DNA from: a virus
Length of the DNA: 59,865 bases
Virus record (IMG/VR): IMGVR_UViG_3300034196_000123
Location: 1 to 59,865 of that record
Strand: one strand, 5' to 3'
Position numbers and translations under genes: made by a program. This document shows positions 27,157 to 59,756 of the stretch, piece after piece. How positions within the stretch are numbered: the first letter of the stretch is position 1; every line of letters starts with the position of its first letter. The notes below the pieces were generated by a model. It had not been told where the DNA came from. It worked only from the letters and a program-made list of their open reading frames with translations, and did no database searches.

Positions 27157-27897
27157 CTACTCCGCGGCGATCTGGTAGACGAGCTGGTACCGCTCCGACG
27201 ACATGACCATCCGATTCACCTCGACCGCCCGGTCGCCGGCGTACGCCACGCGGGTCACCTCGAGGACGGGGTAGGCGGCGGGCAGCTGCAGGTGCTCGGC
27301 CTCCCGCGGCCGCGGTGGTCGCGCCGCCACCAGCTCGCTGTAGTGGGTGAGCGTCCACCCGGCCTCTTCGACGCGGGCGTACATCCCGCCGGGGCCGGTG
27401 TCGGTCTGCTCCAGGTGCGCGGCTTCGGCGACGTCCACGGGGATCCAGCTGGTGGCCAGCTGCACGACCTCGGCGTCGGCGCGCATGATGCGCTCGCGGA
27501 CGGCGACGTCGGTGCCGGGCGCGACGTCCAGGAGCGGCGCGACGTCGACCGGGACCGTCTGCCGGAACGTCTTCACGGTGACCGCCGGCGCCCAGCCGCC
27601 GGTCCGGGCGTCGCTCATGAACGTTCCGCGGCCGGCTGCGCGCTCGGCGGCGCTGAGGCGGTTGCGGGCGAGCCTGGTGACGGGCTTGCGCTCGCTGACG
27701 AACCAGCCGCGGCCGGACACGCTGAACACGAGGCCTTCGGCGCGCAGTTGGTCGACGGCGTTCTGGATCGTGTTCCTCGCGACCCCGAACCGGGCCATGA
27801 GCTGGGTGCCGGACGGCAGGGGAGTGCCGGGACCGGCGTCGGTGACCTCGCGGCGGAGGGTGTCGGCGATCTCGACCCATGGGCGGCGCACTGGCAT
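27157..27897 (-). CDS. GntR-family transcriptional regulator (HutC/UTRA type)
   Basis: A 246-residue protein. Residues 8-75 form the GntR winged helix (WVEIADTLRREVTDAGPGTPLPSGTQLMARFGVARNTIQNAVDQL...SGRGWFV). Residues about 95-240 are a UTRA effector domain (ARERIMRADAEVVQLATSWIP-type stretch, YPVLEVTRVAYAGDRAVEVNRMVMSS). It is minus-strand, and a TAGCAT -10 (27909-27904) lies so close that the mRNA may be leaderless. Two operator palindromes are upstream. GntR proteins such as KorSA/TraR control transfer in actinobacterial integrative plasmids. Confidence 0.85.
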   Translation of the reverse strand: MPVRRPWVEIADTLRREVTDAGPGTPLPSGTQLMARFGVARNTIQNAVDQLRAEGLVFSVSGRGWFVSERKPVTRLARNRLSAAERAAGRGTFMSDARTGGWAPAVTVKTFRQTVPVDVAPLLDVAPGTDVAVRERIMRADAEVVQLATSWIPVDVAEAAHLEQTDTGPGGMYARVEEAGWTLTHYSELVAARPPRPREAEHLQLPAAYPVLEVTRVAYAGDRAVEVNRMVMSSERYQLVYQIAAE

Positions 27898-38521: not shown

Positions 38522-38874
38522 TGGCCGCCGTCCACGTTCCCTGCCCCGCGTGCGGGCAGGACGTCATCGAGATCACCGCCGAGTACCAGACCGGCACCGG
38601 GTCACGGCACGCGATGCCCGGCGTCCAGTACGTCGACCCCGACCCGTCCCCAGTGACCGGCGGGATCGTCCTGCCCGCCGACGGCCCCTGGACCGTCGTG
38701 CGGCCCTCCGTGGCCGCTGACGCCCCGGTCCGGCACCGGTTCCACCGCTGCCCGAACGCCCCCGCCGAGCCCCGCGCAGTCCGGGCACCCAAGCCCGCAC
38801 CGCCCCGCCAGCTCCCGCCCGACCTCGACGTCCCCGACATCACCGCGCCCCGCTACGGAAGGAACGCCCCGTGA
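38521..38874 (+). CDS. Zinc-ribbon hypothetical protein
   Basis: A 117-residue protein starting at ATG that overlaps the upstream TGA. PCPACGQDVIEIT gives a CxxC near residue 8; a second potential ligand pair is weaker (HRFHRC near 90). Pro-rich C-terminus. It overlaps ParB by four bases, so is part of that operon. Confidence 0.6.
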   Translation: MAAVHVPCPACGQDVIEITAEYQTGTGSRHAMPGVQYVDPDPSPVTGGIVLPADGPWTVVRPSVAADAPVRHRFHRCPNAPAEPRAVRAPKPAPPRQLPPDLDVPDITAPRYGRNAP

Positions 38875-40619
38875 CCCTCGCCCCGCCCGCCCCCGACCCC
38901 CACGCCGGCCTCGGCGTCCTCATGCCCATCGACCAGATCAAGCCCAACGCGCGCAACGTCCGCCGGGACCTCGGCGACGTCACCGAGCTGGCCGACTCGA
39001 TCCGCGAGGTCGGCGTCCTGCAGCCCTGCACCGTCGCCCCGTCCACGACCGACCCGGTGCAGTGCCCGGAGTGCGACACCCTGTTCCCCGTCGACCAGCT
39101 CGTCGGCGGAGCCTTTCCGAGGCACTGGCGCTCGCCGCAGAGCCGGCGCAACTGCCGCGCGGGCACCGAGGCCGCCCCGATCACCTACGACCTGATCGCC
39201 GGGCACCGGCGCCTCGCCGCGTCCGTCCAGGCCGGCCACACCCACCTGCCGTGCGTCATCCGCGCCGACCTCACCGGCGTCGTGGACGTCACGGTCGCCA
39301 TGTTGTCGGAGAACCTGCACCGTGCCGACCTCTCCCCGATGGAGGAGGCCACCGCCTACGCGCAACTGCAGATCGCCGGCCTCGACGAGCAGACCATCGC
39401 CCGCCGCACCGGCCGGTCCCGCACCACCGTCGCCAGCCGCCTGAAGCTCATGGACCTCCCCGACCGGATGCAGGCCCGGGTCCACGAGCGGCAGATCACC
39501 CTGGACGAGGCCGCTGCCCTCGCCGAGTTCGCCGGCGACCCGGGGGCCCTCCGCGAACTGGAGCAGGCTGCCGGCACCCGCGACTGGCCCCACGCGCTGC
39601 GCCGGATGCGGGACAGCCGTGAGACCCGCCTGGAGCGGGAGCGGATGGTCGCCGATTTCGCTGCCCGCGGGTTCCGGGTCCTCGACAGCGGCGAGACGAG
39701 CGGGCTGTGGGAGCAGACGCTGCGCTCCCTCGACATCAGCGAGGACGACCACGCCCCGTGCGCCGGCCGCGCCGTGCACGTCACGCCGACCAACTTCGTC
39801 CAGAACTACTGCCTGGAGCCGTGGCTCCACGCCCCCGACCGGTTCCCCGACCCGGCCGCCCCGACCTACGACACCACGGCCCCAGCAGCCGGCGGCGACA
39901 CCACCGCCGCGACACAGCCGGCGCTGCCCACGGTCGCCCAGCAGGACGCCGAAGCCCAGGAACGCCGAGCCGCCGAGCAGGCCGAGGCCGCTGCGGCCGC
40001 GAAGGCCGCGTTCGCCGTCCGGCAGGAGTTCCTCGAGACCTTCTGCCGTGACCGCCGCCCGGTGCCCGCCGACCAGGGCGCGGCGGTGCTTCGGCACCTG
40101 CTCGACCTGCTGACCCGCGCCTACCTCGGCGAGGTCGTGATGCAGGACTGGCTCCACATCCTCACCGGCGAGGACGTGGCCGACGTGGACGACGACGCCG
40201 CCGAGACCAAGGTCCGGGCCATCGTCGCGGAGCGGGACCCGATCCGGGTGCTGCTCGCCGAGCTCGCGGTCGAGTCCGACCGGCTGGTGTACCCGGCGCA
40301 CTGGGGTCCGTCGCCGCTGGGCAGCCACCTGCCGTTCCTGCAGTCCCTGATCGCCGTGGGGTACGTGCCCTCGACGTGGGAGCAGGAGCGCATCGACGCG
40401 GCGCTCGCCTACCGCACCCGGGTGGAGTCGCCGGCGGTCGTGGACGTCCGCCTCCCCGAGCACGACGTCCCCGCCGACGTCGACCAGGCCGACAGCGACG
40501 ACGAGGCGACCTCCGGCACCTGCCGGGTGTGCTTCTGCACCGACGACGAGGCGTGCGACCCGCCGTGCTCCTGGGCCGACGCCGAGCACACCATCTGCAC
40601 CGCCTGCACGGCGGGCTGA
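38871..40619 (+). CDS. ParB-like protein with inserted zinc ribbon
   Basis: A 582-residue protein. The ParB/sulfiredoxin fold starts at PIDQIKPNARNVRRDLGDVTELADSIREVGVLQP (18-52); it is interrupted by a Cys-rich insert (PVQCPECDTLFP...NCRAG, 62-97) before DLIAGHRRLAASVQAGHTHLPCVI and a KorB-like helix-turn-helix (EEATAYAQLQIAGLDEQTIARRTGRSRTTVASRLKL). The C-terminal ~370 residues have a coiled coil and a final Cys cluster (CRVCFCTDDEACDPPCSW). It may act in partition or as a regulator/nuclease. Confidence 0.8.
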   Translation: MTLAPPAPDPHAGLGVLMPIDQIKPNARNVRRDLGDVTELADSIREVGVLQPCTVAPSTTDPVQCPECDTLFPVDQLVGGAFPRHWRSPQSRRNCRAGTEAAPITYDLIAGHRRLAASVQAGHTHLPCVIRADLTGVVDVTVAMLSENLHRADLSPMEEATAYAQLQIAGLDEQTIARRTGRSRTTVASRLKLMDLPDRMQARVHERQITLDEAAALAEFAGDPGALRELEQAAGTRDWPHALRRMRDSRETRLERERMVADFAARGFRVLDSGETSGLWEQTLRSLDISEDDHAPCAGRAVHVTPTNFVQNYCLEPWLHAPDRFPDPAAPTYDTTAPAAGGDTTAATQPALPTVAQQDAEAQERRAAEQAEAAAAAKAAFAVRQEFLETFCRDRRPVPADQGAAVLRHLLDLLTRAYLGEVVMQDWLHILTGEDVADVDDDAAETKVRAIVAERDPIRVLLAELAVESDRLVYPAHWGPSPLGSHLPFLQSLIAVGYVPSTWEQERIDAALAYRTRVESPAVVDVRLPEHDVPADVDQADSDDEATSGTCRVCFCTDDEACDPPCSWADAEHTICTACTAG

Positions 40620-42845: not shown

Positions 42846-43324
42846 CCGCCGTCGGACGCCCCTGGGGCAGCCCCGCCGAGGTGCGGGCCATGGGCATCGT
42901 GCAGGAGCGCGAGGACGAGCTCAAGCGCCTGCGGGCCGGCGCCGACTCCGCCCCGCCGGAGTTCGGCACCGTGCTGACGCCGGCGCAGCTGTGGCACCGG
43001 CTCCTGCAGGCCCACGTCGACGAGCGGTTGCAGATCCTCGGTCACCTGCAGGTCGCCGCCCACGACGCCGCTCAGTGCGTGATGGCCGACCACGCCGGGC
43101 AGTTGCTGCACCTCGGTGCCCGCCTGCCCGTCGTCCGCCAGGACCGGGACGACGCTCGTGCCGTGGCCGGCGAGGTCCTGGCGGCCGCCGAGTGGCGGCC
43201 TTGCCGGGTCGCGGAGCAGGGCATCGACTGGCCCGGTGCTGTCCGGCACGTCACGCAGGTCCAGCTGGACACCTGGCGGGCACGAGCCGGGCTCACCGAC
43301 GCCACGCCGGCGGCGACGTCATGA
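42842..43324 (+). CDS. Hypothetical helical protein
   Basis: A 160-residue protein (ATG 42842, overlap 4 nt). Helical, Gln/His/Leu-rich (LWHRLLQAHVDERLQILGHLQVAAHDAAQCVMADHAGQ). The pattern 'LQAHVDERLxxLxxLxxAA...A..H' occurs in uncharacterised actinobacterial proteins. No catalytic motif. Confidence 0.55.
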   Translation: MTAVGRPWGSPAEVRAMGIVQEREDELKRLRAGADSAPPEFGTVLTPAQLWHRLLQAHVDERLQILGHLQVAAHDAAQCVMADHAGQLLHLGARLPVVRQDRDDARAVAGEVLAAAEWRPCRVAEQGIDWPGAVRHVTQVQLDTWRARAGLTDATPAATS

Positions 43325-44001
43325 CCGACCGGGAGCCGGACACCGGCGCGGTATGGCTGCGATCGGAGCCCGACCAGACCGGGACCTACCACCTGCGTCT
43401 GGAGCTGGGCCCGGGCGACGTCGTCCCCCTGGACACCCTGGCGGCGTACCGGTGGGCCGCTGAGGTCCTCGCCGCGACCGCGGCCGCGGAGCACGACGCC
43501 GCGGTCGTCGCCCAGCTGACCGCCCTCGGGGTCAAGGACAGCGTGGCGGCCGGCGTCGTGACGGCGCTGCGCGCGGACCGGCCTGGCTCCGGCGCGGCGG
43601 TGCCGGGTCTGGCGCTGGTCCCCGGGGTGTCGCACCGGACGCGGGACGGGTTCGTACTCCTAGAACGGCACGGGGAGCCGTTCGGGCAGTGGGACCTGGA
43701 CGCCGCCCGGCACCACGCTGCGGGGGTCCTGGAGGCCGTCGAGGTCGCGTTGCTCGACGCGACGTACCTGCGGGCCCTCACCGGCCTCGTCGGCCTCGAC
43801 CGTGACCGGGCGCTCGCCGTCGTCGCGGACCTGGCCAACCACCGGCCGCCCCAGCCGGCCGACCCCGACCCGCTGCTCGACCGGTACCGGGACGCACTGA
43901 CCGTCATCGCGATGAGCGAGCCGGCCCCGACGCAGCCGCAGGCCGTCGTGCTCGCCCAGCACGCCCGGGAGGCGCTGGACGGCGTCGGGGCGACGTCGTG
44001 A
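43321..44001 (+). CDS. Hypothetical protein
   Basis: A 226-residue protein, ATG overlapping the upstream stop. N-terminal beta segment (GTYHLRLELGPGDVVPLDTLAAYRWAAEVLAATA), then a middle domain with RDGFVLLERHGEPFGQWDLDAARHHAAGVLEAVEVALLDA and an Ala-rich tail. No known family. Confidence 0.55.
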   Translation: MTDREPDTGAVWLRSEPDQTGTYHLRLELGPGDVVPLDTLAAYRWAAEVLAATAAAEHDAAVVAQLTALGVKDSVAAGVVTALRADRPGSGAAVPGLALVPGVSHRTRDGFVLLERHGEPFGQWDLDAARHHAAGVLEAVEVALLDATYLRALTGLVGLDRDRALAVVADLANHRPPQPADPDPLLDRYRDALTVIAMSEPAPTQPQAVVLAQHAREALDGVGATS

Positions 44002-49055: not shown

Positions 49056-49110
49056 GTGGAACACATTACGCGCCATGATGAGTGTGCGCAATACGGGTGG
49101 AACACTTTAC
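49056..49110. repeat. Two direct repeats GTGGAACACWTTAC
   Basis: GTGGAACACATTAC (49056-49069) and GTGGAACACTTTAC (49097-49110), 41 bp apart (about four helical turns), upstream of the minus gene starting at 48,996. Likely binding sites for one regulator. Confidence 0.6.
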
Positions 49111-49367
49111 TCGGGCTGTGCGTCGATCTCCGGGCTGTGCGCGTCCAGCGCAGCCTCCACCTCGCGCAGCCGCCAGATCCGACCTGCGCGCAGCTCAGCC
49201 ACCGGCGCCGGCCACCACGCTGTGCGGGTGAGCGCGTCGACCCGCTGACGGGACACCGTGCGGCCGCGCGCAGCCAGCAGCTCGCGCACCTCCGCTACCC
49301 CGACCAGCGCCTCCACGTCGCGCAGCGTACCTGCGCGACCCACCTGCGCGGGCCCCTGTGCGGCCAC
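49107..49367 (-). CDS. MerR/AlpA-type HTH regulator
   Basis: An 86-residue GTG-start protein: LVGVAEVRELLAARGRTVSRQRVDALTRTAWWPAPVAELRAGRIWRLREVEAAL is a winged helix-turn-helix of the AlpA/BldC class. It is divergent from the transfer-like operon and flanked at its start by the palindrome at 49,368, so it probably autoregulates and controls that operon. Confidence 0.7.
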   Translation of the reverse strand: MAAQGPAQVGRAGTLRDVEALVGVAEVRELLAARGRTVSRQRVDALTRTAWWPAPVAELRAGRIWRLREVEAALDAHSPEIDAQPE

Positions 49368-49489
49368 CTGTGCGCCGCACAGCCCTGCGCGGGCCTCCCG
49401 ACTGTGCGCCGCACAGCCCTACCCTGTGCGGCGCACAGCCGGGCGCACAGGGGTTGCGGGTTGACAACCCCCCGACTGTGCGCGCACAG
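49368..49489. promoter_or_regulatory. Four palindromes CTGTGCG-(N)-GCACAG and a TTGACA promoter
   Basis: Palindromes lie at 49,368-49,382, 49,402-49,416, 49,424-49,438 (15 bp each) and 49,476-49,489 (14 bp, CTGTGCGCGCACAG). A consensus -35 TTGACA (49,461-49,466) precedes the last palindrome, which overlaps the spacer and a CACAGT -10-like hexamer (49,485-49,490). A GGGGTTG/CAACCCC hairpin covers the -35. This is an operator cluster for a repressor controlling the rightward operon. Confidence 0.65.
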
Positions 49490-49614
49490 TGGATCCGCTA
49501 GCCCAGCTAGCGACCACGTGTAGCACGACGAGCGACGCGCAGCGTCCGCTCAGCCCCGGCGCACAGCCCGCCGCACATCCACCCCCGCGCACAGCCCGCA
49601 CACCTGGAGCCCCC

Positions 49615-49998
49615 GTGCCCAACCCCGCACACCCGGGCGCACAGCCGCCCGCACAGCCCGACGCGCAGCCCGCGCAGCCCGTGAACGGCGCCGCGCAGGC
49701 CGCCCGCCACGCCGCCGTCGCCCACGCGCACGCCGCGACCCCCGCCCGGCTGCCCTGGTACGCCGGACCCCGCGTCCGCGCCATCACCGCCGCGGCCGCC
49801 GCGTTCCTGGCCCTCGACCTAGGCGTCATGGGCTCGACCCTGACGTCCACCGGCCTGCTCCGCCTGGTCCTGCTCACCGCGATCGCGTTCGTCGTCGTCC
49901 GCGTCACCTGGCGCCCGTACCTCGCCGCCCTCCGCTCGTCCCTGCACGTCACCCGCCCCACCGCCACCTCGAGCTCCACCGGCGACCGGGACGCCTGA
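49615..49998 (+). CDS. Two-pass membrane protein, first gene of transfer-like operon
   Basis: A 127-residue GTG-start protein (GGAG five bases upstream). An Ala/Gln/Pro-rich N-terminus (GAQPPAQPDAQPAQP) is followed by two hydrophobic helices (about residues 57-80 and 85-105) and a Thr/Ser tail. A longer reading from 49,489 would run through the operators and is not preferred. It resembles small Spd-like membrane proteins beside FtsK/TraB genes. Confidence 0.6.
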   Translation: MPNPAHPGAQPPAQPDAQPAQPVNGAAQAARHAAVAHAHAATPARLPWYAGPRVRAITAAAAAFLALDLGVMGSTLTSTGLLRLVLLTAIAFVVVRVTWRPYLAALRSSLHVTRPTATSSSTGDRDA

Positions 49999-50216
49999 TG
50001 GCCGGCCACCCGGACACCGACGTCGAGGTCTGGCGGCGTCAGGGCAAGCGTCGCCGCCTGCTCACGACCCGCCGGCCCGTCGAGGCGAAGGACACCCCGC
50101 AGACCCGCGTGGTGATCCAGGAGGCGTGCCGGGTGGCCCGCGTCCCGTGGTCCGACCTGGAGGTCCGCGTCCGGATCCCCAGGTCGGCCCGCTGGGAGAC
50201 CTTCTACGTCGACTAG
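49998..50216 (+). CDS. Basic small hypothetical protein
   Basis: A 72-residue protein overlapping the previous stop by one base. Basic and mixed (WRRQGKRRRLLTTRRPVEAKD..., DLEVRVRIPRSARWETFYVD). May bind nucleic acid. Family unknown. Confidence 0.55.
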   Translation: MAGHPDTDVEVWRRQGKRRRLLTTRRPVEAKDTPQTRVVIQEACRVARVPWSDLEVRVRIPRSARWETFYVD

Positions 50217-50372
50217 TGCCCTGACCTGCCCGGATGCCCTGTTGTCGGGTTGTTGGTGTCCGGGCCCTCCCTTACGCGCAGGCGCGCGCCCGACAAACAT
50301 CCCGCCCCGATCGGGGCTGGGACCGACAGGCGGACCCGCCGGCCTCCGACAGGCGGGAGAGGGGAGAACCCC
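50217..50372. other. Non-coding spacer with palindrome and direct repeats
   Basis: Contains the palindrome CCCCGATCGGGG (about 50,305-50,316) and two direct copies of CGACAGGCGG (about 50,325 and 50,349). No gene is evident; GGGGAG at 50,360-50,365 is the ribosome-binding site of the next gene. Confidence 0.45.
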
Positions 50373-50822
50373 GTGTCGTCCTGGGCCGTGTTCGCCATCT
50401 CGGTGGTCGCAGCGTTCGCCCTGCACTGGCTCTCCGGGGAGTTCCACCCGCCACGGATCGGGACGTGGGTCGAGCTGACCCTGTCCGTCCTCGCTGGCAT
50501 CTGCGCGGTGTCCGCGTCGGTGCTGGCCGTCGACCAGGGCTGGCTCATGGGGACTCTGTCGACGCTGGCCCGGGCCGAACCGGTCCGGATCTTCTTCGGC
50601 CTGGTCGCCTGCGCCGTCCCGCTGTGGTTCCTGCTGGCGATGCTCCCGGCGTCGTGGTCCCGGTTCGGGATCTCCTACCTCGCGCTCGCCGTGTTCATCA
50701 TCTCGGTCCCCCTGCAGGCGTACGCCTTCTCGGGGAAGGTCCCGCACGGCATCAGCGTCGGGACCGTCGAGACGGCGCAGCAGTTCAGGGCGATCACCCG
50801 TGACTGGTGGGTGCGTGCCTGA
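50373..50822 (+). CDS. Four-pass membrane protein
   Basis: A 149-residue GTG-start protein with four hydrophobic segments (about 4-22, 34-52, 70-90, 98-118). It ends in SVGTVETAQQFRAITRDWWVRA. Similar to small polytopic proteins encoded before FtsK/TraB-like genes in actinobacterial mobile elements; no enzyme motif. Confidence 0.6.
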   Translation: MSSWAVFAISVVAAFALHWLSGEFHPPRIGTWVELTLSVLAGICAVSASVLAVDQGWLMGTLSTLARAEPVRIFFGLVACAVPLWFLLAMLPASWSRFGISYLALAVFIISVPLQAYAFSGKVPHGISVGTVETAQQFRAITRDWWVRA

Positions 50823-51793
50823 TGGACCCCATCTCGATCACGATGATCCTGCTGCTCGCCGGGTGCGGGGCCACGTGGCTCGACAACCGGTGGGACGCCG
50901 CGATGGAACGTGTGCGCGGCGGCCAGCCCACGAACCCGTGGGCCCGCCCGATCCCGACGCCGGTGCGCGCAGCCGCACAGCACGCTGTGCGCGCTGGCCG
51001 CGCAGCCGCCGTCGAGCACCGCGGCAGCGGCAACGGGACCTGGCGGCCGGCGCCCGAGGCGGCGCACAGCTCGGTCCCGCACAGCACCGACGACCCGGCA
51101 CCCGTCCCCGTCGCGAAGCCGCACAGCGGCCCGGTCGCACAGCCCGGTCCGCGCGCAGCCCGCGCAGGTGTGCGCGTGTGGTTCGGCGCAGGTGTCGAGG
51201 CTGTGCGCGAGGGGACGCGCGCAGCGCCCGAGGGGTGGCGGGCCGGTGCACAGCCGGTCCCGTCGCCACGGACCCCGGACCCTGCGCCCGACCCCGCGCC
51301 CGCGCAGCCACCCGCACAGCCCGTCCCCGTGCAGCCCGCTGCGCCCGCACAGCCCGACGCACAGCCGCCCGCACAGCCCACCGGCGACCAACCGGCCGCC
51401 ACCGCACCGACCGCAGGAGACCCCATGGGAGAGCTCGGACCCATCCCCACCGAGATCGCCGACCACGCCACCCTCATCCAGGTGTTGCGCCGCGTCGGTG
51501 CCGCGATCGAGGACGACATGGGCGCCGCCGGCGGCGGCATCCGCTCCCTGATCGCCAAGCTCGCCGAGCTGGCCACCAAGGCGCAGGCGGTCCGGACGCT
51601 GCCCGAGCGGTGCACCCCGGACATCGGGGGCCCCACCCAGGGCCGCCTCGACGAGCAGGCCGCCCAGGCCGCGCTCCTGCACCGCCGTGTCACCGAGGCG
51701 ATGGACCAGCTCGGTGCGCTGCAGGCCGACCTGCAGCACCTCGCCGAGGCCACGACCGGCGCCCAGCAGACCGCGACCGCCGCACGCGGCTGA
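50822..51793 (+). CDS. Membrane-anchored Ala/Gln/Pro-rich protein with C-terminal coiled coil
   Basis: A 323-residue protein (ATGA overlap). One N-terminal hydrophobic helix (ITMILLLAGCGATWL, with a Cys), then a very long disordered Ala/Pro/Gln linker with many A-Q-P units (residues about 100-200), then a coiled coil (VLRRVGAAIEDDMG..., AALLHRRVTEAMDQLGALQADLQHL). An internal ATG 51425 with AGGAG upstream would release the 122-residue coiled-coil part. Shares the GCACAGCC DNA repeats with the 49,615 gene. Confidence 0.6.
   Translation: MDPISITMILLLAGCGATWLDNRWDAAMERVRGGQPTNPWARPIPTPVRAAAQHAVRAGRAAAVEHRGSGNGTWRPAPEAAHSSVPHSTDDPAPVPVAKPHSGPVAQPGPRAARAGVRVWFGAGVEAVREGTRAAPEGWRAGAQPVPSPRTPDPAPDPAPAQPPAQPVPVQPAAPAQPDAQPPAQPTGDQPAATAPTAGDPMGELGPIPTEIADHATLIQVLRRVGAAIEDDMGAAGGGIRSLIAKLAELATKAQAVRTLPERCTPDIGGPTQGRLDEQAAQAALLHRRVTEAMDQLGALQADLQHLAEATTGAQQTATAARG
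51425..51793 (+). CDS. Possible internal product of the 50,822 gene
   Basis: ATG 51425 with GCAGGAGA seven bases upstream would make a 122-residue form (MGELGPIPTEIADHATLIQV...) lacking the membrane anchor. Only ribosome-binding-site strength supports it. Confidence 0.3.
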   Translation: MGELGPIPTEIADHATLIQVLRRVGAAIEDDMGAAGGGIRSLIAKLAELATKAQAVRTLPERCTPDIGGPTQGRLDEQAAQAALLHRRVTEAMDQLGALQADLQHLAEATTGAQQTATAARG

Positions 51794-51831
51794 CCCGTCA
51801 CCCCGTCCGACACCCTGGAGAGGAGGTCACG

Positions 51832-53769
51832 ATGACCCGGACCCACGACCGGCACGCCGACGTCGAGTCGCGCCGTCAGGCCCGCCGGTGGCGGCGCCTG
51901 GAGCGTCGCCTCGACGGCCGGCCCTGGCACCAGCGTCTGTGGTGGGTCCGGGGCCCCGTCCTGCTGGCCCGCGCCGTCCGGCGGATCGTCGCCCTGGTCG
52001 TGTCCCTGCCGGGTCGGCGCCGGCGGTTCGGCTGGCCCCTGCTGGCCGCTGTCGCGGCCGCGGTGCTCGTCGCGCCGCTGCCGTGGGCGCTCGCCGCCGT
52101 CCTCGCGGTGGCCGCGGCGTGGCTGCGGGAACGCCGCGGCGGACCTCGCCGGGTCGTGTCCGACCGGGAGGCGTGGCTGTGGGCCGGCGCGCTCGCCGTC
52201 GTGGCCGTCGCGCAGCAGCTGCTCGACGGCCGCCCCTGGTGGGCCGCCCCGGCCGCGACCATCCCGACGTCCGTCGCGTGGATCTGGGGGAGGCGTACCC
52301 GCCGCCCGGGCCGCTTCGAGCAGGCGTGGGCGGAGCACGTCGCCGGCGAGCAGGATTGGGCCCGGTCGACGGTGCGGGACGTCCGGGTGAAAGTCGACCG
52401 GAAGGGATACCCCGACGGCACGTTCACCCTGGTCGTCGCGAAGGGGCAGACCGCGAAGGACGTTGCCACGAAGGGCGACGAGCTGGCCTCCCACCTGGCC
52501 GACGCCTTCCCGGTGCTCACCGCTGGGTCACTGATGGTGTCCCACGGGCACGGCGACCCGATCCGGCAGGCCCGCGTCGCGATCGCGAACCCGCGCCGTC
52601 AGGCGGAGCCCCGGTACTGGCGGGAGCCGTCCCTCGACGAGCGGACCGGGCTCTACCAGATCGGCGACACGATGCACGACGGGTCCCGGGCCCAGATGTG
52701 GCAGCACGCCGGCGGCGTCAACACCGTCGCCGTCGGCGGCCCAGGGAAGGGCAAGGGCGGCTTCACCGTCGTCACGGACGTCGAGGCTGCGATCAGCCGC
52801 CACGTGGTCCTGATCGTGCTGGACGGGAAGCGGGGCGCCGGTGTGCCCGCGCTGCGCTACGGAGCGTCCCTGTACGCCCGGACCCCCGGGCAGTGGATCG
52901 TCGCGTGGGACGCCGCCATGACGATCATGCGGATGCGCGCCGACGAGTACGGCGAGGCAGGCAAGTCGCTGTGGTCCCCGCAGTCCGACCCGCTCATCAA
53001 GGTCACGTGCGACGAGTGGCGGTACATCCACCGTGCCTGGCCGCAGATGCGCGAGGACGCCGTCTGGTGGACCGGGCAGACCAGAAGCTACGGCGGGCAC
53101 CTGCACCTCAACCTGCACCGCGGCGACGGCGACGGCTACGGCGACACCGAGATCAGAAGCAACATGTACGCGAACGGTCAGGCGTGGATCGGTCCGCAGG
53201 GCGACCTGTCCGCGGAGAACTGCGCCGTCCAGTCCTGGGGCGTCAAGCCCGCGACCCTGCCCCCGTACCCCGGGTGGGGCGACCTCTGCCAGACGATCAA
53301 CGGGGACGTCGGCTCCGCGGTCCGCGCGAAGAACCTGTGGCTCCCCACGAACGCCGAGGTCGCCGAGTTCGGTGTCCCCGCCCCCCACGGCACCGCCGAC
53401 GACATCATCCGGGAGCACGCCGTGTTCCCGTCCCTGCCGCCGGCGATGCAGGCCGTCCTCGACACCGCCCGGGAGGCGATCGAGTCCGGCCGCGCCGACC
53501 AGCCCGAAGCGGTCGAGGAAGCCCGGGAGCGGGCCGCCGCGACCCAGGGCCGCCCCGAGACCGTGGACGCCCTGATCCTCGCCGCGCTCGCCAACGCCCC
53601 CGACCAGGCCGCCGGCGCCACCGACCTGGCGAAGGCCATCGGCCGTGACCGCGCCTACGTGCAGGAGCGCCTCACCGTGCTCCGCGACACCGGGCGCGTC
53701 CTGCAGGAGGGCCCCCGCCGCCCGTACCGCCTACCCGCCCCCGCCCAGGAACTGGAGCCCGCCTCGTGA
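51832..53769 (+). CDS. FtsK/SpoIIIE/TraB-like DNA translocase, atypical Walker A
   Basis: A 645-residue protein; ATG 51832 behind GGAGAGGAGG. Two to three membrane helices (about 66-102, 115-135) precede the motor. The nucleotide loop reads VAVGGPGKGKGGF (about 302-312): the lysine is followed by Gly, not Ser/Thr. LIVLDGKRG (about 327) and VTCDEWRYIH (Asp393-Glu394) match the second and Walker-B-like motifs, and a QTRSYGGHLHLN stretch follows. A C-terminal winged helix (DALILAALANAPDQAAGATDLAKAIGRDRAYVQERL) resembles FtsK gamma/TraB. Likely moves dsDNA. Confidence 0.75.
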   Translation: MTRTHDRHADVESRRQARRWRRLERRLDGRPWHQRLWWVRGPVLLARAVRRIVALVVSLPGRRRRFGWPLLAAVAAAVLVAPLPWALAAVLAVAAAWLRERRGGPRRVVSDREAWLWAGALAVVAVAQQLLDGRPWWAAPAATIPTSVAWIWGRRTRRPGRFEQAWAEHVAGEQDWARSTVRDVRVKVDRKGYPDGTFTLVVAKGQTAKDVATKGDELASHLADAFPVLTAGSLMVSHGHGDPIRQARVAIANPRRQAEPRYWREPSLDERTGLYQIGDTMHDGSRAQMWQHAGGVNTVAVGGPGKGKGGFTVVTDVEAAISRHVVLIVLDGKRGAGVPALRYGASLYARTPGQWIVAWDAAMTIMRMRADEYGEAGKSLWSPQSDPLIKVTCDEWRYIHRAWPQMREDAVWWTGQTRSYGGHLHLNLHRGDGDGYGDTEIRSNMYANGQAWIGPQGDLSAENCAVQSWGVKPATLPPYPGWGDLCQTINGDVGSAVRAKNLWLPTNAEVAEFGVPAPHGTADDIIREHAVFPSLPPAMQAVLDTAREAIESGRADQPEAVEEARERAAATQGRPETVDALILAALANAPDQAAGATDLAKAIGRDRAYVQERLTVLRDTGRVLQEGPRRPYRLPAPAQELEPAS

Positions 53770-54599
53770 CCCGCCTCCGTGCCCACCTCGACCGGGGCCG
53801 CGGCATCTGCTACCTCGTCATGCTCATCGCAGGCGGGATCTCGATCTACGCGAACGTCGCGTTCCAGCTGATCGAGCGCGCCGAAGATGGGACGTGGATG
53901 CCCCGCCGCGACCCGCACCTCGACGCGATGGCGCTCGCCGCGGCCGCGCCGATCCTGCTGTGGGCGACCCTGGAGGTCCTGATCCGGGTGGAGGGCCGCG
54001 GCCTGGCCGCGTGGACGGTCCGGGTCGGCACCACCCTGGTCGCGGCCGCGTCGTTCATCGCGTCGTTCCAGAACATCCGGAACCTGCTGCTGTCGTTCGG
54101 GGACTCCCAGCTGACCGGCTGGACGTACCCGCTCGGCATCGACGGTGCACTCGTCGCGGCCGCCGCGGCGCTGTGGCAGATCCGCGTCACCGCCACCGCC
54201 GCGCCGGCCGCCGCGGTGGGGGAGGCCCCGGCCGTGGAGGCGCCGCGCTCGCCCGCTGAGCCGCGCCGCCGCAAGGCCGCCGAGCCGCTGCCCGCCGCGG
54301 CGCCCACCGAGGCGCCGACCACACCAGCGGTGGACCCGGCCCCGGTCCCCGCCGCGGCACCCACCCCGCCGCCGGCGCCCCGCCCCCGCGCAGTCACCGC
54401 CCGCCCGGCCGCCGCCGTCCAGCCCGACACCAACGCGCGGGACGCCCGGATCCGGGCCCTCGCCGCCGAAGGCAACGGCCGACCCACCGTCGCCCGGACC
54501 CTCCGCGACGAGGGCTACTCGATCTCCGACACCGACCTCGCGACGATGCTCCGCCAGTTGCGCGCCGAGACCGAGGGGAGGGCCGAGCAGCATGCCTGA
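53766..54599 (+). CDS. DUF2637/SpdA-like membrane protein with C-terminal HTH
   Basis: A 277-residue GTG-start protein overlapping the translocase stop. Residues 13-140 have four hydrophobic helices with GWTYPLGIDGALVAAAAALWQI, the DUF2637 signature seen next to Tra/FtsK genes of actinobacterial conjugative elements. A Pro/Ala linker leads to a helix-turn-helix-like tail (DARIRALAAEGNGRPTVARTLRDEGYSISDTDLATMLRQL). Confidence 0.7.
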   Translation: MTRLRAHLDRGRGICYLVMLIAGGISIYANVAFQLIERAEDGTWMPRRDPHLDAMALAAAAPILLWATLEVLIRVEGRGLAAWTVRVGTTLVAAASFIASFQNIRNLLLSFGDSQLTGWTYPLGIDGALVAAAAALWQIRVTATAAPAAAVGEAPAVEAPRSPAEPRRRKAAEPLPAAAPTEAPTTPAVDPAPVPAAAPTPPPAPRPRAVTARPAAAVQPDTNARDARIRALAAEGNGRPTVARTLRDEGYSISDTDLATMLRQLRAETEGRAEQHA

Positions 54600-55086
54600 C
54601 GACCTCCCGGCGTGGGGCACCCCCGACGTCCCCCCGTGGGGCACCCCGGAGTCGATGGAGACGTGGCAGGTTCACCGGACCGTCACCGTCGTCCATGTCG
54701 TCACCGTCCCCGGGCCCCGGCCCGGCCTCGCGCTCGCCGTCGCAGCCGGCGTCGCGATCGCCGCTATCGCCGCCGTCCGTGTCGCACCCGCCGAGGGCGC
54801 GCCGGCGACGACGCCGGCGTCGTGGACGGTCCCGGTGTCCCTGCCCCCTGAGTTGCCCGCCGGGTCACCGGTGCCGTCCGGGCCGTCGCCCTCGACGTCG
54901 TGGATGCCGCCCGCCGACACCCCCACCTCGAGCCCCACCCCGACGTCCACGCCGACGCCGAGCCCGCCGGCGGGCACCGTGTCGCCGACGGACGTCCCGA
55001 CCACCGACCCCACCACGTCGTCCGAGCCCCGCTGGGGGTTCGCCGATCGCGTCGCCCACGAGCTCGCGACGCGCGGCGCACGGTGA
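54592..55086 (+). CDS. Membrane protein with Thr/Pro stalk
   Basis: A 164-residue protein with one hydrophobic helix (ALAVAAGVAIAAIAAVRVA, about 48-66) and a long Pro/Thr/Ser exterior stalk ending in a short folded tail (RWGFADRVAHELATRGAR). Overlaps neighbours. Possibly surface-exposed; no family. Confidence 0.6.
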   Translation: MPDDLPAWGTPDVPPWGTPESMETWQVHRTVTVVHVVTVPGPRPGLALAVAAGVAIAAIAAVRVAPAEGAPATTPASWTVPVSLPPELPAGSPVPSGPSPSTSWMPPADTPTSSPTPTSTPTPSPPAGTVSPTDVPTTDPTTSSEPRWGFADRVAHELATRGAR

Positions 55087-55223
55087 CCCTCACCGTGCGC
55101 TGCTCCTGCGGCCTACCGATGCAGATCAAGGCCGGTGCCTGCGACCCGCCGTACCGCTGGTGCTGGCGCTGCGACCGTCAGCCGGCCCAGGTCTGGTGGT
55201 GGCCGTTCCCGCAGGGCACCTGA
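55083..55223 (+). CDS. Small zinc-ribbon protein
   Basis: A 46-residue GTG-start protein overlapping the previous stop (GTGA): CSCG near the start and CWRC near residue 27, then an aromatic WWWPFP segment. A tiny zinc-binding protein closing the transfer-like operon before a terminator. Confidence 0.6.
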   Translation: MTLTVRCSCGLPMQIKAGACDPPYRWCWRCDRQPAQVWWWPFPQGT

Positions 55224-55239
55224 CCACCCCCACAGACTG

Positions 55240-55280
55240 GATGCCGTCAGCCCCTCGCTCGGGGAGAGGCTGGCGGCATC
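55240..55280. terminator. 13-bp hairpin ending transfer-like operon
   Basis: GATGCCGTCAGCC pairs with GGCTGGCGGCATC (55240-55252 with 55268-55280; one G-T), loop 15 nt containing a short inner pair. Confidence 0.7.
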
Positions 55281-55346
55281 CTGCACGACACACTGGACAT
55301 CGACCGCGCGGACCCGAACCCGCACCGCGCCACCTCTGGAGGACGA

Positions 55347-59734: not shown

Positions 59735-59756
59735 GGGGGGGGGGGGGGGGGGGGGG
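59735..59756 (+). repeat. 22-nt poly-G run followed by C-rich run
   Basis: An unbroken G run (59735-59756) followed by CCCCCGG and a further C run. Such a tract is unusual even in G+C-rich DNA and can be a sequencing artefact; it should not be used to infer biology without read data. Confidence 0.8.

Follow-up and report, generated by a model that had tools for sequence, protein, structure and literature searches.

The window analyzed here is the whole of the IMG/VR virus record IMGVR_UViG_3300034196_000123 (59,865 bp, GC content 73%), and the subject is a gene module at positions 49107-55281 that is built around a DNA translocase gene. The module comprises a divergent helix-turn-helix (HTH)-like open reading frame (ORF), a palindrome-rich control region, and eight co-directional genes mostly overlapping at their ends, and it lies directly upstream of the phage terminase genes (Table 1). 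By its gene content the window is a temperate tailed phage, because it encodes virion proteins (portal, head protease, major head protein, tape measure, and a complete terminase, the large subunit of which has its top matches in Arthrobacter phages at 37%) together with a tyrosine integrase, a GntR/UTRA regulator, an O-like replication protein, and a ParB-like protein. The virion genes and the ParB-like protein bear on whether it is also a phage-plasmid of the pZL12 kind; the tyrosine integrase suggests that the phage integrates. The host is most likely a high-GC actinobacterium.

Table 1. Features of the translocase module and its possible distant partner in the window.
Feature	Position	Strand	Basis or remark
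Small HTH-like protein, 86 aa or shorter	49107..49367	-	ORF; 3 reverse copies of the array motif inside
Control region, noncoding; palindromes and direct repeats of CGCACAGC; first array, clt-like	49368..49614		
Membrane protein, 127 aa, 2 hydrophobic segments, Pro/Ala-rich N-terminus	49615..49998	+	Hydropathy
Soluble protein, 72 aa, overlapping the stop of the 127-aa gene	49998..50216	+	ORF; no Pfam match
Membrane protein, 149 aa, 4 hydrophobic segments, Spd-like by position	50373..50822	+	Hydropathy
Protein of 323 aa: hydrophobic N-terminus, long Pro/Ala/Gln linker, helical C-terminus	50822..51793	+	
Second array, 11 copies of CGCACAGC/GCTGTGCG in the 323-aa gene, three codon phases	50974..51377		
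FtsK/Tra-like DNA translocase, 645 aa	51832..53769	+	Profile searches
Walker A of the translocase, GGPGKGKG(G)	52735..52758	+	Alignments; Gly at the usual Ser/Thr
Walker B acidic pair of the translocase, KVTCDEW	53011..53016	+	D and E align with the family Walker B
C-terminal winged helix of the translocase, residues 556-630	53497..53721	+	Profile matches, AlphaFold
DUF2637 membrane protein, 277 aa, HTH-like C-terminal tail	53766..54599	+	PF10935
Single-pass membrane protein, 164 aa, outer part Pro/Ser/Thr-rich	54592..55086	+	Hydropathy; 1 hydrophobic segment
Cys-rich protein, 45 aa, possible zinc ribbon	55086..55223	+	Sequence reading; no Pfam match
Terminator-like hairpin, 43 nt	55239..55281	+	RNA fold z = -3.0; no T tract
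GntR/UTRA regulator, plasmid Kor type, beside the integrase	27157..27897	-	Pfam GntR 6.6e-13, UTRA 1.6e-21

The 645-aa protein showed no motor-part match in Pfam, NCBIfam, or PHROGs (no Pfam match even at E-value 1) and no match at E-value 1e-5 in phage and plasmid collections, and direct searches found no relatives among phages, plasmids, IMG/VR, and genomes. Only two weak winged-helix matches were obtained in a scan of 396 actinobacterial genomes, and the one examined over its full length proved not to be a translocase. A permissive plasmid search with the motor part indicated a protein from a Kitasatospora linear plasmid with the E-value 3, and the pairwise comparison gave 6e-10. A Microbacterium match of the same search (locus L004) was dropped, being on the wrong strand. 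With the Kitasatospora protein as the query, 159 plasmids were recovered, mostly from Streptomyces, as were the FtsK-like translocases encoded by BE-type phages of that genus.

A profile (A1) was made from 11 actinobacterial plasmid and phage Tra-like translocases, with the window protein left out. It matches the 645-aa protein with the E-value 2.2e-25 (hhalign probability 99.2%), and the solved FtsK/SpoIIIE structures with the E-values 4e-23 and 3e-14. A slightly different profile of 10 members gave 2e-12 for the 645-aa protein (best domain 1e-10), while the best of 1000 shuffles scored 1.2. These profile comparisons make the protein a member of the FtsK/HerA superfamily, in which Tra-like proteins of actinobacterial plasmids are its closest group. 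The first-pass annotation had proposed an FtsK/TraB-like translocase at this position, and had named a placement outside FtsK/HerA as the result that would speak against it; the proposal is supported by the profiles, which put the protein inside the superfamily, and not by Pfam. Within FtsK/HerA, the protein is assigned as a diverged member to the broad branch of Tra-like proteins from actinobacterial plasmids.

The protein has the layout of TraB: a hydrophobic N-terminus (hydropathy peak at residues 73-91), the motor, and a C-terminal winged helix. The winged helix matches a PHROG transcriptional regulator (E-value 0.0017) and NmtR (0.036). It is the best part of both AlphaFold models, in which fair confidence is otherwise limited to parts of the N-terminal half.

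The second main component is a repeat array. The word CGCACAGC or its complement occurs in 21 copies within 49115-51377 (2.3 kb) versus five copies in the remaining 57 kb, and in 60 order-4 Markov genomes no 8-mer exceeded 12 copies in the 2.4-kb stretches examined. The 247 noncoding bases of the control region contain 13 copies of the half-site CGCACA/TGTGCG, versus 0.09 expected from the density elsewhere. The palindrome cluster of the first-pass annotation was confirmed as an inverted repeat of 20 nt at 95% (49397-49443) and a perfect palindrome, CTGTGCGCGCACAG (49476-49489). It had been overlooked that these palindromes are part of an array running through two genes to 51377. The control region folds as single-stranded DNA with z = -7.6. 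The copies in the array are mostly in one orientation, and facing pairs make palindromes between the divergent genes.

In the array the DNA word, not the peptide, is under selection. This follows from three observations on the coding part. The copies inside the 323-aa gene are distributed over the three codon phases and encode AHS, PHS, AQP, and other peptides. Against the 11 copies observed in this gene, 5000 synonymous-codon shuffles gave a mean of 0.50 and a maximum of 4. Ala-Gln is written GCACAG at 10 of 19 positions in the two linker genes and at 1 of 44 elsewhere. Chance origin of the array is rejected by the Markov-genome and synonymous-codon controls.

Clustered 8-mers beside plasmid translocases from Micromonospora, Actinoplanes, and Streptomyces were also considered as DNA arrays and discarded; they are mostly in one codon phase, and are therefore peptide repeats. 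A plasmid from Streptosporangium (L007:7084-7935) contains 13 copies of GCGGAACT/AGTTCCGC, which occupy several codon phases and the intergenic space before a second FtsK gene. Five of them are spaced about 22 bp apart, and this is another candidate clt-like array with a different word.

The 9-bp form CCGCACAGC fits CCGCACA[C/G][C/G], the consensus of the repeat that is present nine times in clt, the cis site for plasmid transfer, of pJV1 (PMC3583192). This agreement is suggestive only, as it is at the level of the consensus and short words coincide easily in GC-rich DNA. Two reports describe TraB hexamers assembling on 8-bp repeats (PMC4170104, PMC12857230). The C-terminal winged helix of the translocase is a candidate reader of the repeats in the window. 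The GntR regulator is disfavored as the reader, its own promoter having no copies.

Alternatively, the repeats might serve the divergent HTH protein, or some other regulator, as operators without being read by the translocase. The palindromic pairs at 49368-49489 lie between divergent genes, where a repressor would act, and the HTH gene itself carries three copies. Ordinary operators, however, need not sit inside a downstream gene, and 11 copies are found 1.5-1.9 kb downstream in a coding gene, mostly single, in one orientation, and at the cost of rare Ala codons. A purely operator role is considered somewhat unlikely. Double use of the array, with operator pairs and a clt, would reconcile the two functions.

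The genes around the translocase were compared with those on plasmids. Plasmids from Streptomyces, Kitasatospora, Amycolatopsis, Nonomuraea, Streptosporangium, Pseudonocardia, and Micromonospora encode a related translocase downstream of small ORFs and a helical protein. The plasmid helical protein upstream of the translocase has a hydrophobic N-terminus, and in several cases a DUF2637 gene is located a few genes upstream of the translocase. The 323-aa protein of the window corresponds to the helical proteins in layout and place; no sequence homology to them was detected, as shuffles score equally well. Neither PF08751 and PF03432 (TrwC/MobA-type relaxase) nor PF12846 (VirB4-type ATPase) was detected in the window, while positive controls were detected. 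This absence fits, because it is expected of a single-translocase system.

The translocases of Streptomyces plasmids and of actinomycete integrative and conjugative elements (AICEs), such as those of pIJ101, pSVH1, and pJV1, share with the window the membrane segment, the FtsK-type motor, the C-terminal winged helix, Spd-like neighbors, and repeats. In contrast to the Streptomyces plasmid proteins, the window motor is phage-borne, has a GKG P-loop, and is too diverged for PF01580, and the array is much larger than clt of these plasmids and is partly intragenic. The likeness to a conjugation region, which the first-pass annotation had drawn to both plasmids and AICEs, is borne out for plasmids by homologous translocases, similar neighborhoods, and the plasmid-phage PhiNon1, while AICEs fit less well. 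The window has an integrase, as AICEs do, but it carries a full set of virion genes and its replication gene is O-like. AICE replication genes (RepSA, RepAM, Prim-pol) were not seen among the genes scanned, Prim-pol having had no model search of its own.

PhiNon1 from Nonomuraea gerenzanensis (NZ_LT559120) is an integrating phage genome of 59,257 bp in which DUF2637, a protein with two transmembrane segments, one with four, a helical protein, and an FtsK-like translocase are encoded in one stretch, a set that the window has too. Its four-segment protein of 133 aa stands where the window has the 149-aa protein. The DUF2637 gene is at the start of the PhiNon1 cassette, whereas it follows the translocase in the window, and PhiNon1 has a conventional P-loop (GGSGSGKS) and no comparable DNA-level array. 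About 217 bp at the beginning of its DUF2637 gene (L014, around 43107-43345) are present in two copies, each with an inverted repeat GGGACACC...GGTGTCCC. The integration site of PhiNon1 is a tRNA-Val gene, and the authors who described this plasmid-phage noted its likeness to pZL12 (PMC5431353). No transfer test of PhiNon1 was found in the portions of the literature covered.

The Streptomyces phage-plasmids pZL12/PhiZL12 and pSLE1 have a regulator, small ORFs, a helical protein, and the translocase directly upstream of terS/terL, as in the window, and pSLE1 Tra also has a GKGG P-loop. They differ from the window in their translocases, which are barely alike in sequence, in their capsid genes, and in the divergent regulator, which is GntR. 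No array of CGCACAGC comparable to that of the window was found in pZL12 and pSLE1. For pZL12, transfer reportedly depends on the tra gene and two neighbors (PMC3583192, citing Zhong 2010).

In the window, the translocase shares its operon with membrane proteins and DUF2637, and the dense repeat array adjoins. The module is judged somewhat likelier than not to be a plasmid-type DNA-transfer system, composed of a clt and a translocase and carried by a temperate tailed phage. At the sequence level, the view that it works like actinobacterial plasmid transfer is supported. The divergent HTH protein, perhaps with GntR, would repress the operon through the palindromic repeat pairs, so that transfer would be switched on in some cells only. 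The winged helix of the translocase would bind the direct repeats as clt. Upon release, a hexamer would assemble on the array at the membrane, the small membrane proteins would act like Spd proteins, and the hexamer may pump double-stranded prophage DNA or excised phage DNA into a neighboring cell or hyphal compartment.

Several points weigh against the transfer system. The motor is below all Pfam and NCBIfam thresholds, including that of PF01580 (FtsK_SpoIIIE), the family by which Tra proteins of AICEs are recognized (PMC3218068); pIJ101 TraB passes PF01580, and pZL12-71 fails. The P-loop ends in GKG and departs from the canonical Walker A GxxxxGK[S/T], and the T/S-Q following Walker B is also lost. 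Since tests for PF01580 and for the canonical Walker A both came out negative, the 645-aa protein is not counted among the TraB proteins. Both AlphaFold models are poor on the motor (predicted local distance difference test scores 41 and 45). No sequence homology is detectable between the small membrane proteins and their plasmid counterparts, and, except for DUF2637, their equivalence is one of place and hydropathy. In four prophages whose terminases are related, no such translocase lies near the terminase; the module is therefore accessory in the lineage, and its function in the phage is unreadable from conservation. Most documented cases of contact transfer come from mycelial hosts.

Apart from these comparisons, a 5.3-kb plasmid labelled Pseudomonas sp. 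SK2 (NZ_CP061945.1) encodes pIJ101 TraB at 99.8% identity, and is probably a vector or a mislabelled record.

The divergence of the motor could also indicate a decaying plasmid remnant, acquired as a cassette by recombination and now losing motor activity. The GKG P-loop, the lost residues after Walker B, and the lack of near relatives in the searched collections of phages, plasmids, and viruses are consistent with decay. But all frames are open with tight overlaps, and the array is retained against codon bias. Moreover, GTTGSGKGG occupies this alignment position in pSLE1 Tra, whose system seems intact; the loss of Ser/Thr is therefore not by itself a sign of decay. Decay is regarded as quite improbable.

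Another alternative is maintenance within one cell, in which the module would serve partition, dimer resolution, or septum clearing of prophage or replicating phage DNA, and the array would be a partition or loading site. The phage has a ParB-like protein (38871-40619, HTH_ParB 1.1e-13), and SpdA2 of pIJ101 is a palindrome-binding protein that influences stability rather than transfer (PMC4170104). Streptomyces BE-type phages such as Elmer encode a translocase of the same wide family (family profile E-value 1e-17) as a lone gene. However, that gene lies among tRNA genes in a 130-kb genome, and neither DUF2637 nor the rest of the cassette surrounds it, whereas the operon neighbors in the window are those of plasmid transfer regions. 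In addition, the FtsK_alpha, FtsK_gamma, and 4TM domains are absent from the 645-aa protein in Pfam, although they are carried by true FtsK paralogues on similar plasmids (loci L005 and L007). Maintenance is judged unlikely, yet it is taken more seriously than decay.

The position directly upstream of the terminase genes might also suggest a role of the translocase in the virion cycle, such as help in packaging, DNA entry, or takeover. The terminase, portal, and protease set is complete, however, and similar cassettes are present on plasmids where virion genes were not noticed. Such a role is very improbable.

The remaining genes agree for the most part with the first-pass annotation. The eight-gene run is likely one operon, from the overlaps of 1-8 bases at 49998, 50822, 53766, 54592, and 55086; a single gap of 156 bp precedes 50373. 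Small membrane proteins had been described, and three were recovered by hydropathy. The ORF of the 127-aa protein is open from 49489, and its start at 49615 was deduced from an upstream GGAG. This protein and the 164-aa protein belong to no family in PHROG or Pfam, and the 149-aa protein has nothing above the Pfam cut-off. The DUF2637 assignment holds, with PF10935 at the E-value 1.3e-5 and 25.6 bits, above the curated cut-off of 22.8. Two claims stand in part. A divergent ORF is present where an HTH regulator had been proposed, and PHROG matches at the E-values 0.007 and 0.2, with no Pfam match, hint at its HTH nature; its product is likely a local regulator. A strong hairpin is found where the operon was said to have its own terminator, and, lacking a T tract, it is a probable terminator.

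The GntR protein of the window shows 36% identity to a GntR protein on the Actinoplanes translocase locus L020 (E-value 6e-33), and it also matches pIJ101 GntR (2e-7). It is possibly a distant partner of the module. It is also related to the GntR proteins of pZL12 and pSLE1, and is thus a plasmid Kor-type repressor in a phage. The ParB-like protein is 582 aa long, is encoded on the plus strand, and has ParB_N in addition to HTH_ParB; no ParA was noticed among the window genes scanned. Near the end of the record, about 22 consecutive G (59735-59756) precede C runs; this may be a tract of variable length or an artefact of assembly.

Transfer cassettes in phages are already known from pZL12. What is distinctive here is the array, the GKG motor, and the phage background outside the pZL12 lineage. 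A more specific proposal is that a phage outside this lineage spreads both as a virion and as double-stranded DNA, which is pumped to neighbors by a GKG-type translocase docking on a clt array within the coding sequence of its own operon. This proposal is tentative, and is held with less confidence than the presence of a transfer system as such. If true, phage conjugation would extend beyond the Streptomyces pZL12 group, with a cis-site of 21 repeats of one 8-bp word. The phage could spread without lysis, and the pumped transfer could take chromosomal DNA along. This would also point to transfer cassettes passing as units between actinobacterial plasmids and phages, repeatedly beside the terminase.

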